From: Collimonas sp. OK242
GTDB lineage: Bacteria; Pseudomonadota; Gammaproteobacteria; Burkholderiales; Burkholderiaceae_D
Direction: 5' to 3'
DNA length: 64,000 bases
NCBI RefSeq assembly: GCF_900107095.1
Contig: NZ_FNOR01000007.1
Span: forward strand, 62,001-126,000
The stretch's first letter is position 1. Every line of letters begins with the position of its first letter. This document shows positions 38,266 to 48,520 of the stretch, one piece after another. Below the pieces are notes generated by a model. That model was not told the DNA's origin. It ran no database searches and worked only from the letters and a program-made list of their open reading frames with translations. Both the position numbers and the translations under genes were made by a program.

Positions 38266-40284
38266 TCAAGCCATCTTAAAGACCAGCAATTGGGCGGATT
38301 CGCTCACTTGGTCGCCTACGGCATACAACAGCTCCTCGACCAGGCCATCGGCCGGGGCGGCGATCGTATGTTCCATTTTCATCGCTTCCATGATCAGCAA
38401 TGGTGCGCCTTTTTTTACCTGTTCGCCTTGCGTTACCAGCAGCGCGACGATCTTGCCTGGCATAGGCGCCGTGAGGCGGCCGCCTTCGGCTTCGCTGTCG
38501 CCGGCATGCAGCAGCGGATCGACATAACCCAGCGTGTGCTGGCTGCCGGCGTAAAACACGTGGAACTGTTCGCCTTCGCGCACTACGGTGCCGGCTACGG
38601 TTCTGTCGCCGAGGCTGATTTCGATGGCGTTGCCGTCTTGCTCCAGCACGGTCATCTGCTTGAAAGTCTGGGCGTCGAATTGCTCATGATGCAGCAACCA
38701 GCGGCCTGCCTCGTACGTGACGTCGAGCGGGCTGGCGTTGCCGTCGTCGACAAATGCGAGTCGACGTTGCAGGCTGCCGTTCAGGCGCCAGCCATCGGTA
38801 TTGGTCCACGGATCGCTGCCGGCATTGTGGGCAGCATTGCGTTCCGACAGCAACAGCGACGCCGCCGCCAAAGCGAATACTTCGATCGCCACCGGAATAG
38901 CGGCGGGAAACAGGGTAGCGTGATGACGTTCGATCAGACCGGTGTCCAGATCCGCTTCGGAAAACGGCTTGCCGGCAATCAGGCGCTGCAGGAATTTGAC
39001 ATTGCTGGCGAGGCCGACGATCTGGTATTGCGCCAGCGCCTTCGCCATCGCAGCCAATGCTTGCTGCCGGTCCTGGCCCCAGACGATCAGCTTGGCGATC
39101 ATCGGATCGTAAAACGGTGAAATCGCATCGCCTTGACGCACGCCGGAATCGATCCGGACGATGCTGGCGCCGGATTGGCTGACTTCGAACTCGGTGGCCG
39201 CCGGCGTGCGCAGATGGCGCAAGGTGCCTATCGACGGCAGGAAGCCCTTGTCCGGATTTTCTGCATAGATACGCGCTTCCAGCGCGTGGCCGCTCAGTGT
39301 CAATTGCTCCTGCCTGAGTGGCAACGGTTCGCCTGAAGCTACCCGCAACTGCCATTCGACCAGATCGAGGCCGGTAATCATTTCCGTCACCGGATGTTCT
39401 ACCTGCAGGCGGGTGTTCATTTCCATGAAATAGAAAGAACCGTCCTGATTGGCGATGAATTCCACCGTACCGGCGCCGACATAACCGACTGCCTTGGCCG
39501 CCGCCACCGCCGCCTCGCCCATGGCGCGCCGGCGTTCCGGCGTCATGCCCGGCGCCGGCGCTTCTTCCAGCACTTTCTGATGGCGCCGCTGCACCGAGCA
39601 GTCGCGCTCGAACAGATAGACGCAATCGCCCTGGGTATCGGCAAACACCTGGATCTCGATGTGGCGCGGACGCGTCAGGTAACGTTCGACCAGCACTTTG
39701 TCATCGCCAAAGCTGTTGATCGCTTCGCGTTTGCAGGAAGCCAGCGCAGCCTTGAAATCGGCGCTTTGCTCGACAATGCGCATGCCCTTGCCGCCGCCGC
39801 CGGCGCTGGCTTTCAGCAACACCGGGTAAGTGATTTTATCGGCTTGCTGCTGCAAAAAATCGGCATCCTGGGTCGCGCCGTGATAACCGGGCACCAGCGG
39901 CACCTCGGCTTTTTCCATCAACTCCTTGGCGGCCGACTTCGAGCCCATCGCCGAAATCGCACTGGCGGGCGGGCCGATGAATACCAGGCCGGCCTTGGCG
40001 CAAGCTTGGGCAAACTGCGCATTTTCGGACAGGAAACCGTAGCCAGGATGAATCGCCTGCGCGCCGGTGGCCAGGGCCACCTCGATGATCTTGTCGGCGC
40101 GCAGGTAACTTTCCTTGGCCGCGGCCGGTCCGATCAGCACCGCCTCGTCACACACCGCAACGTGCTTGGCGCCGGCGTCGGCATCCGAATATACGGCCAC
40201 GGTCTTGATGCCCATGCGCCGTGCTGTGGCTGCCACGCGGCAGGCAATCTCGCCGCGATTGGCAATCAGTATCTTGGTAAACAT
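38266..40284 (-). CDS. liuD: Methylcrotonyl-CoA carboxylase alpha (biotin) subunit
   Basis: Biotin carboxylase plus biotin carrier subunit (672 aa) of 3-methylcrotonyl-CoA carboxylase in leucine degradation. The biotin carboxylase part is about residues 1-450, with KILIANRGEIACRV, the ATP-grasp glycine loop KASAGGGGKGMRIV and EMNTRLQVEHPVTEMITG. A linker/BT region follows, then a C-terminal biotinyl domain with the modified Lys636 in EAMKMEH. The call over acetyl- or propionyl-CoA carboxylase rests on the carboxyltransferase gene liuB and the other liu genes. It is 20 bp after bioB, so this biotin protein is cotranscribed with genes that make biotin. Confidence 0.93.
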   Translation of the reverse strand: MFTKILIANRGEIACRVAATARRMGIKTVAVYSDADAGAKHVAVCDEAVLIGPAAAKESYLRADKIIEVALATGAQAIHPGYGFLSENAQFAQACAKAGLVFIGPPASAISAMGSKSAAKELMEKAEVPLVPGYHGATQDADFLQQQADKITYPVLLKASAGGGGKGMRIVEQSADFKAALASCKREAINSFGDDKVLVERYLTRPRHIEIQVFADTQGDCVYLFERDCSVQRRHQKVLEEAPAPGMTPERRRAMGEAAVAAAKAVGYVGAGTVEFIANQDGSFYFMEMNTRLQVEHPVTEMITGLDLVEWQLRVASGEPLPLRQEQLTLSGHALEARIYAENPDKGFLPSIGTLRHLRTPAATEFEVSQSGASIVRIDSGVRQGDAISPFYDPMIAKLIVWGQDRQQALAAMAKALAQYQIVGLASNVKFLQRLIAGKPFSEADLDTGLIERHHATLFPAAIPVAIEVFALAAASLLLSERNAAHNAGSDPWTNTDGWRLNGSLQRRLAFVDDGNASPLDVTYEAGRWLLHHEQFDAQTFKQMTVLEQDGNAIEISLGDRTVAGTVVREGEQFHVFYAGSQHTLGYVDPLLHAGDSEAEGGRLTAPMPGKIVALLVTQGEQVKKGAPLLIMEAMKMEHTIAAPADGLVEELLYAVGDQVSESAQLLVFKMA

Positions 40285-40304
40285 GCTGTCTCCCCCATTT
40301 ATAT

Positions 40305-46792: not shown

Positions 46793-46897
46793 TTGTTCAT
46801 CTCCGCTTGCCGCATCGCTACGGCCCAATAAATAAGATCCAGCTCCGGACAGGCATGACCCATGGCGGCACGATGGTTTTCTGTTCGCTATGGGGTT

Positions 46898-48520
46898 TTA
46901 CATCCGGAACACGCCAAACTTTGTCTCCGCAATCGGCGCATTCAAGGCTGCGCTCAAGCCCAGCCCCAGCACCCGGCGCGTATCGGCCGGATCGATCACG
47001 CCGTCGTCCCACAAGCGTGCAGAGGCGTAATACGGATGGCCTTGATGTTCGTACTGATCGCGAATCGGTTTTTTGAAAGCTTCTTCTTCTTCCGCGCTCC
47101 AGCTGCCGCCCTTGCCTTCGATGCCGTCGCGCTTGACGGTTGCCAGCACGCCGGCAGCCTGTTCGCCACCCATCACCGAGATACGGGCATTCGGCCACAT
47201 CCACAGGAAACGCGGCGAATAGGCGCGGCCGCACATGCCGTAGTTGCCGGCGCCGAAGCTGCCGCCGATGATCACCGTCAGCTTAGGTACGGCAGTGGTT
47301 GCCACCGCCGTCACCATCTTGGCGCCGTTACGGGCGATGCCTTCGTTTTCGTAGCGGCGGCCGACCATGAAGCCGGTGATGTTTTGCAGGAACACCAGCG
47401 GAATCTTGCGCTGCGAGCAGAGTTCGATGAAGTGAGTGCCTTTCACGGCCGCTTCTGAAAACAGAATGCCGTTGTTGGCGACGATGCCGACCGGCATGCC
47501 GTAGATATGGGCGAAGCCGCAAATCAGCGTGGTGCCGTAGCGCGCCTTGAATTCATCGAATTCGCTGCCGTCGACGATGCGCGCGATCACCTCACGTACA
47601 TCGAACGGTTTGCGGGTATCGAGCGGAATAACGCCATACAGTTCATGGGCCGGATACTTGGGTTCGACTACCGGACGCAGCAGCGGACCTTGCGGTTTCT
47701 GGCGATTCAGGTTGGAGACGATGGTGCGCGCCAGCGACAAGGCGTGCATATCGTTTTGCGCCAGATGATCGGCCACGCCGGACAGGCGGGTGTGGACATC
47801 GCCGCCGCCCAGGTCTTCGGCGCTCACCACTTCGCCGGTCGCGGCTTTTACCAGTGGCGGGCCGGCCAGGAAAATCGTGCCCTGGTTCTTGACGATGATC
47901 GACTCGTCGCTCATCGCCGGCACATAGGCGCCGCCGGCAGTACACGAACCCATCACCACCGCGATTTGCGGAATGCCTTTGGCCGACAGGTTGGCCTGGT
48001 TGTAGAAGATGCGGCCGAAATGGTCACGATCGGGGAACACTTCATCCTGGTTCGGCAAGTTGGCGCCGCCGCTATCGACCAGGTAGATGCAAGGCAGATT
48101 GTTTTGTTCGGCGATTTCCTGCGCCCGCAAATGCTTTTTGACGCTGAGCGGATAGTAGGTGCCGCCTTTGACTGTTGCGTCATTGCAGACCACCACGCAT
48201 TCCTGCCCCGCGATACGGCCGATGCCGGTAATCACCCCGGCGGCGGGCGCAGCATCGCTGCCATCTTTGTCTTTGTAGACGTGATAAGCCGCCAGCTGGG
48301 AAAACTCCATGAACGGCGTGCCAGGATCAAGCAGCATCTGCACCCGCTCACGCGGCAGCAATTTGCCGCGCGCCACGTGCTTCTTGCGTGCAGCGTCGCC
48401 GCCGCCCTCGGCGATCTGCGCGACTTTCTGGCGCAAATCGTCAACCAGCAAATTGAGCGCGCTGGCATTTTCCTGGAATTCTTCGCTGCGTGTGTTCAGC
48501 TTGCTTTCTAACTGGGGCAT
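46898..48520 (-). CDS. liuB: Methylcrotonyl-CoA carboxylase beta subunit
   Basis: Carboxyltransferase subunit (540 aa) of 3-methylcrotonyl-CoA carboxylase. It moves CO2 from the biotin of LiuD to 3-methylcrotonyl-CoA. Both halves of the crotonase-fold carboxyltransferase are present: the N-domain with [36 protein letters not shown] and [18 protein letters not shown], and the C-domain with [17 protein letters not shown] and [40 protein letters not shown] is also seen. The matching alpha subunit gene liuD lies 6.6 kb away on the same strand, with liuC, the P450 and bioFADB between them. Confidence 0.95.

Follow-up and report, generated by a model that had tools for sequence, protein, structure and literature searches.

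In Escherichia coli, bioF, bioA, bioD and bioB are made together under the control of BirA. Bacillus subtilis encodes a P450, BioI (CYP107H1; PDB 3EJB), in its bio operon together with the same four genes. According to a review (PMC11089781), the BioF of B. subtilis cannot use the BioI product. The LiuR regulon of Proteobacteria comprises a MerR-type regulator, LiuR, the liu genes and palindromic sites, and in the available portions of its two descriptions (PMC5343134, PMC3223726) no bio gene is named under LiuR. A literature search, limited in depth and covering its sources in part, found neither a description of bio genes controlled by LiuR nor one of bio genes located within liu. The locus described here lies in a window of 64,000 nucleotides (nt) from Collimonas sp. 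OK242 (contig NZ_FNOR01000007.1, positions 62,001 to 126,000 of the forward strand), in which biotin synthesis genes and a P450 gene stand between the liu genes for the two subunits of a predicted methylcrotonyl-coenzyme A (CoA) carboxylase. The reading preferred here, with a probability of roughly 60%, is that of a modified ancestral liu-bio operon, linked to leucine, which carries a BioI-like P450-BioF pair in place of the resident bioF.

Compared with B. subtilis, the P450 gene is directly upstream of bioF, overlaps it and is located inside a leucine operon. It is accompanied by its own type of BioF, and the family to which Collimonas belongs keeps a BioC-like gene. The difference from the described LiuR regulon is the inclusion of biotin synthesis genes, along with the placement of the relatives' site and -10 box inside the coding frame of ychJ. 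In contrast to the BirA-controlled operon of E. coli, no BirA box was matched in the window at the single 16-nt spacing tried. An earlier interpretation made from the letters alone (the sequence-only reading) had proposed a search for BirA-type regulation, and the BirA of this genome was found to contain only the BPL_LplA_LipB and BPL_C domains and to lack the DNA-binding (helix-turn-helix) domain. As this domain is missing from BirA, its regulatory part could be taken over by LiuR. A BirA of this kind is reported for betaproteobacteria in PMC5343134; on biotin control after the loss, the sections available say no more than that BirA regulons are apparently absent.

The genes of the predicted operon, in the order in which they would be transcribed, are as follows.

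46898..48520, minus strand: liuB, methylcrotonyl-CoA carboxylase carboxyltransferase subunit (carboxyltransferase family, below cut-off; named by context)
46007..46792, minus strand: liuC, methylglutaconyl-CoA hydratase (enoyl-CoA hydratase family)
44673..45944, minus strand: P450, BioI-like, proposed supplier of pimeloyl thioester (PF00067; rank by profile against the PDB)
43496..44680, minus strand: bioF of the P450-linked clade (TIGR00858, 489.6 bits; tree)
42124..43503, minus strand: bioA of the resident lineage (TIGR00508; tree)
41391..42131, minus strand: bioD (TIGR00347)
40305..41351, minus strand: bioB of the resident lineage, directly before liuD (TIGR00433, 405.8 bits; tree)
38266..40284, minus strand: liuD, biotin-carrying subunit of methylcrotonyl-CoA carboxylase (model matches; EAMKM)
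36225..37133, minus strand: liuE, hydroxymethylglutaryl-CoA lyase (PF00682)

In the open reading frames (ORFs) of the window, liuB, liuC, P450, bioF, bioA, bioD, bioB, liuD, a dehydrogenase gene and liuE are contiguous on the minus strand. Overlaps of 8 nt, as called, join P450 to bioF, bioF to bioA and bioA to bioD, and gaps of 39 and 20 nt separate bioD from bioB and bioB from liuD. The claim of the sequence-only reading that the named liu, P450 and bio genes share one strand with short gaps or overlaps is confirmed by the ORFs, the models and the gap lengths. The four bio genes exceed their NCBIfam cut-offs. The liuD translation contains a biotin carboxylase part and a C-terminal biotinyl domain with EAMKM. 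The products of liuB and liuC match carboxyltransferase and enoyl-CoA hydratase models, respectively; since neither reaches the curated cut-off of its best model, the exact substrate of each is assigned from context. The occurrence of liuB and liuD with liuC and liuE, from family-level matches and the motif, is that of a methylcrotonyl-CoA carboxylase (liu) operon of predicted specificity. The P450 most likely starts at the ATG at 45944 rather than the TTG at 45977, because a stop interrupts the upstream extension in five Collimonas loci, and the liuC-P450 gap would therefore be 62 nt. The most likely start of liuC is the GTG at 46792; the listed ORF starts at 46828.

The placement is widespread in the family. 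Of its 116 genomes, 111 hold a bioB over the cut-off (the other five were left unread), and in 68 of the 111, which represent 24 of 38 genera, the stretch from liuC (or liuB) to liuD encloses bio genes. Fifty of these have the order bioA-bioF-bioD-bioB and ten, from Collimonas and Glaciimonas, the order P450-bioF-bioA-bioD-bioB; six hold bioB alone and two bioA-bioD-bioB. Some liu gene or the dehydrogenase gene adjoins in 29 of the other 43, loci cut by a contig end being counted, and none in 14. The median gap from liuC to the bio genes, measured between the edges of BLAST matches, is 51 nt (67 loci). Outside the family, 20 loci were read from 77 genomes with bioB, and liuB or liuD was near bioB in none of the 20; one (L100) has liuC/liuE-like genes within 5 kb of bioB. 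Recurrence in 68 of 111 genomes excludes chance placement and, set against 0 of 20 outside, indicates by gene order that the liu-bio arrangement is an old trait of the family. A gene order unique to the strain, which the sequence-only reading had named as grounds for giving up its proposal, is refuted by these counts. Its description of the biotin operon as "inserted" is misleading, as liu-bio is the usual order of the family and what has been added is the P450 with its bioF. The ancestral operon would have been liuB-liuC-bioA-bioF-bioD-bioB-liuD-liuE, through which biotin synthesis would be made together with the leucine enzyme that carries biotin.

In six genomes bioB, the gene next to liuD, is the only bio gene between liuC and liuD, and bioA, bioF and bioD do not adjoin; in the g30 genomes these three are located elsewhere. 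According to PMC2964542, the sulfur that BioB donates comes from its own cluster, "in a suicide mechanism", so that a supply of BioB in step with the biotin-carrying subunit would make sense of this adjacency. Three loci with bioB alone between liuC and liuD, L063 (G028), L075 (G045) and L087 (G090), belong to genomes with no bioF over the cut-off, which are perhaps dethiobiotin users.

The following features, all upstream of the bio genes, bear on control by leucine or from a separate promoter.

57359..57364, minus strand: TACAAT, -10-like box ahead of liuR; the LiuR-type site follows after 4 nt
57339..57354, minus strand: LiuR-type site TTTACGTTAACGTTAA, palindrome before liuR (0.04 matches expected by shuffles)
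56886..57332, minus strand: liuR, MerR-family regulator (PF13411, PF09278; named from its position upstream of liuA)
55644..56828, minus strand: liuA, acyl-CoA (isovaleryl-CoA) dehydrogenase (PF02771/PF00441; specificity by context)
50312..50716, minus strand: ychJ-like gene, which we take to be ychJ (its homologue in 30 relatives holds an embedded LiuR-type site, absent here)
48571..50265, minus strand: acyl-CoA ligase, labelled fadD (NF009233, over cut-off)
45985..45990, minus strand: TACAAT, conserved -10-like box between liuC and P450 (Collimonas, Glaciimonas, CAVE-383)

A near-invariant palindrome of 22 nt precedes liuB, or fadD-liuB, with 0-2 mismatches in 31 of the 54 resident-type loci for which 300 nt or more upstream of liuB or fadD were covered. 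The 31 loci are from 31 genomes of eight genera, and every other best match has at least 8 mismatches. The site is within the ychJ match in 30 of the 31, with the reading frame open through it. In 25 loci the site follows TAAAAT at a distance of exactly 4 nt, and in 26 at no more than 22 nt; a one-letter variant of the box stands there in another four, and the g21 locus L168 is arranged differently. The spacing of box and site at the window's liuR is the same as in the 25. In the seven site-bearing loci inspected, YchJ has additional residues, encoded by the site, that the window's copy lacks. When TTTACGTTAACGTTAA and three near forms were sought in the fetched loci, matches occurred only upstream of liuB, fadD-liuB, liuR, liuA or aceK, with none between liuC and the bio genes and none in the 20 order-level loci; loci L078 and L091 also have the motif at liuR or liuA. 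Elsewhere in the Collimonas genome it is located before an acyl-CoA dehydrogenase and near ETF-like (electron transfer flavoprotein) genes, named by eye. The scan of this genome at 2 mismatches was not clean (reversed-pattern control 12 versus 7), and only sites with 0-1 mismatches are relied on.

As the relatives' palindrome resembles the site before the window's liuR, leucine-type (LiuR) control of the liu-bio operon in site-bearing relatives is well supported by sequence comparison. There is a strong indication that the ychJ-embedded site is under selection at the DNA level, and the liuR/liuA anchors and the sites elsewhere in this genome suggest that it is bound by LiuR. In many relatives the operon would be transcribed from a promoter inside the ychJ frame with the site just behind its -10 box, and the products of leucine breakdown would lift LiuR. 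These data also bear on the notion that the adjacency is a neutral relic, in which constitutive genes have been kept together by common descent without regulatory meaning. The resident bio unit persists beside ychJ, liuE or the dehydrogenase gene in g20 and part of g14, at loci without liuB, liuC and liuD, so the bio genes need no liu beside them. The notion is unlikely, however, given the persistence across 24 genera, the near-invariant nucleotide site inside a coding frame and the place of bioB before liuD in six genomes without adjoining bioA, bioF and bioD.

The P450 is the other distinguishing feature of the window's operon. The P450 signatures (heme-cysteine motif, ExxR and AGxET helix) are present in 17 of 22 loci, the window's copy included; these are the loci read at full length, the other five reads having ended in the upstream TTG extension. 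At an E-value of 1e-70, 18 matches were recorded in 17 of the 116 family genomes, representing four genera. The five g24 matches count one TGA each, taken as the gene end (open frames to the stop). All 18 matches are within about 5 kb of bioB and 17 adjoin bioF, the 18th being a second copy beside a split bioB in Glaciimonas soli. With none of liuB to liuE in the vicinity, P450-bioF pairs also occur in Devosia elaeis, CAVE-383, g24, g33 and G410 (a 1.2 Mb genome of the order), and Mesorhizobium norvegicum has the P450 with a remnant of bioF. At the level of the phylum, a cut-off of 1e-85 gave a P450 match in 4 of 397 genomes, one of which, G332 (44% identity), has no bio gene in the 4 kb read.

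In the BioF tree the P450-linked sequences form a group with a support of 99 in the SH-like approximate likelihood ratio test (SH-aLRT), apart from the resident group (SH-aLRT 100). The Collimonas and Glaciimonas sequences are nested among residents in the BioA and BioB trees. The trees were built in quick mode with SH-aLRT only, from 53 of 105 BioF, 48 of 97 BioA and 56 of 134 BioB rows, which comprised all those of Collimonas, Glaciimonas, g24 and g33, a single row for each further genus, the first of the order-level rows and extra named loci. The trees are most simply explained if the liu-bio operon took up a P450-bioF pair in place of its resident bioF: BioF belongs to the P450-linked group, while BioA and BioB sit among residents. 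The pair would have displaced the resident gene in the Collimonas/Glaciimonas lineage and now heads the bio genes. The sequence-only reading had given the P450 no role, which does not agree with the position of all 18 family matches beside bio genes or with the P450-linked clade of BioF.

In a profile comparison with the PDB, BioI ranks first with 310.8 bits, followed by PksS with 296.3. The P450 is inferred to be a BioI-like supplier of pimeloyl thioester. It would cut fatty acyl thioesters as BioI does and pass the product to its matched BioF. A role in the oxidation of leucine or other branched-chain compounds, rather than in biotin synthesis, would suit the position between liuC and the bio genes, and the function of a P450 is not safely readable from its sequence. 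Such a role is nevertheless highly improbable, given that the gene adjoins bioF without nearby liuB to liuE in g24, g33, CAVE-383, Devosia elaeis and G410, that the neighbouring BioF proteins form one group and that BioI is the nearest solved P450 by profile. The single-sequence structure prediction of the P450 had a mean predicted local distance difference test (pLDDT) score of 36.2.

Several observations weigh against the preferred reading of a leucine-linked operon with a BioI-like pair. With respect to the P450, BioI ranks seventh in the single-sequence comparison, below five PikC sequences and 8yhn, and its lead by profile is modest. The mirror-tree correlation is 0.921 for P450-BioF and 0.983 for P450-BioB over the same 15 rows, and is therefore not specific to BioF; the P450 tree had 19 rows and the mirror test 17, the Collimonas P450s L034, L037 and L038 being left out. 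BioC-like matches of 138-198 bits are present in 16 P450 genomes and 26 other family genomes. With respect to control, 23 of the 54 resident-type loci are without the LiuR-type site, as are all eight P450-type loci with enough upstream sequence. The matrix scan of the window detected no such site between 36000 and 57000, hence none near liuB or the bio genes. The conserved TACAAT before the P450 suggests that the gene has its own promoter.

The BioC-like matches exceed the curated cut-off (184.95) in one of 42 genomes. As a BioC-like gene, mostly below this cut-off, is still present, the P450 would be an additional entry to the pathway and not a replacement. Replacement of BioC by the P450 was dropped for the family, with a BioC-like match in 42 of 42 genomes. 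The genomes of G410, CAVE-383 and L023 have matches of 166-171 bits; those of Devosia elaeis and Mesorhizobium norvegicum are weak, at best 65.5 and 74.2 bits. BioH was uninformative, with a match at 1e-15 in 33 of 42 genomes and none over the cut-off.

The window's sole LiuR-type site is the one before liuR, 8.8 kb upstream of liuB. It was the single match of the matrix scan, with 25.6 bits (the matrix includes this site); the next score was 3.7, and five shuffles gave at most 4.5. The remaining evidence on control concerns the TACAAT box, which is present between liuC and P450 in all nine Collimonas and all seven Glaciimonas loci examined, and also before the stand-alone P450-bioF of CAVE-383. 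Letter shuffling of each of the 14 different gaps yields the box in 2-9% of shuffles, a control that ignores kinship. It could be argued from this box, from the lack of a LiuR-type site nearby and from a liuC-P450 gap of 149-202 nt in Glaciimonas that P450-bioF-bioA-bioD-bioB is an independent unit with its own promoter, for which liu is only a location and leucine without effect. This argument is a serious contender, though at clearly less than even odds. No good -35 for the box was found in the window, and shared descent alone could keep it within each genus. Terminator-like sites show no excess in the region (21 found, 19.0 expected), and bioB ends 20 nt before liuD, so at least these two genes should be read together. 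A simple promoter scan also gave no excess, with 4 promoter-like sites against 6.7 expected.

Under the preferred reading of a modified liu-bio operon, upstream liu transcription would account for part of the expression of the bio genes in this genome and a promoter before the P450 for another part, because the ychJ site is absent. A separate promoter for the P450-bio genes is likely from the conserved box, and transcripts that read through from the liuR promoter might bring these genes under leucine control. The induction by leucine proposed in the sequence-only reading is therefore supported for relatives, by the site in 31 of 54 resident-type loci, and not directly for this genome, where none is near liuB or the bio genes. 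The separate promoter that it had set against its own proposal could be the TACAAT box, for which a good -35 is missing. A second bio locus, sought through bioB and bioF, was not found: the genome has one of each over the cut-off. That interpretation is partly supported; it is right in outline for the family, better supported in relatives than here, and incomplete without the P450.

For the family as a whole, a wider proposal is offered tentatively, at slightly less than even odds. The substrate of one of the enzymes that use it would induce synthesis of the vitamin, LiuR at the ychJ-embedded promoter would replace the lost BirA control, bioB would be kept beside liuD since each BioB spends its own sulfur cluster, and P450-BioF would form a second, BioI-like entry in Collimonas and Glaciimonas. 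A concrete test, and a cheap one, can be made in relatives, where a LiuR-type site precedes an operon that contains both a biotin enzyme and the genes for biotin. The P450-BioF pair would be a Gram-negative case of a BioI-like enzyme travelling with a BioF that may accept its product.

Some further loci contain the P450. In Glaciimonas soli, L022 and L024 hold extra bioB-P450 pairs at a distance from the intact liu-bio operon; L022 combines a split bioB with an open P450 frame, and in L024 both genes are fragments. The 1.2 Mb genome G410 (L226) keeps P450-bioF-bioA-bioD, with the BioC-like gene elsewhere. The Devosia elaeis locus (L019) has the full P450-bioF-bioA-bioD-bioB in a Collimonas-like order behind riboflavin-like genes (by eye), and the grouping of its BioA with Glaciimonas (SH-aLRT 92) suggests transfer.

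The co-directional run on the minus strand is wider than 38266-48520 and extends from liuR (57332) to liuE (36225). Its order is liuR, liuA, a PALP-domain gene, an aceK-like gene, a thiolase gene, a DSBA-domain gene, the ychJ-like gene, the acyl-CoA ligase, liuB, liuC, P450, bioF, bioA, bioD, bioB, liuD, the dehydrogenase gene and liuE. One gene of the run between liuA and the thiolase is presumably aceK. In the window, Rfam gave no match at gathering scores and the tRNA search found none. The spacing of liuB and liuC is 0.9-1.9 kb in five other Collimonas loci, with a hydrolase-like ORF within and a further ORF in two of them; positions 46829-46897 of the window retain only both ends of that stretch, as after a deletion. 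The gene between liuD and liuE is found there in many relatives too.

37170..38120, minus strand: 2-hydroxyacid dehydrogenase-like gene (PF02826)

In the gap between liuD and this gene (38121-38265), GGGGTCAGAG and its inverted partner CTCTGACCTC flank a short stretch, in the manner of a small repeat element.

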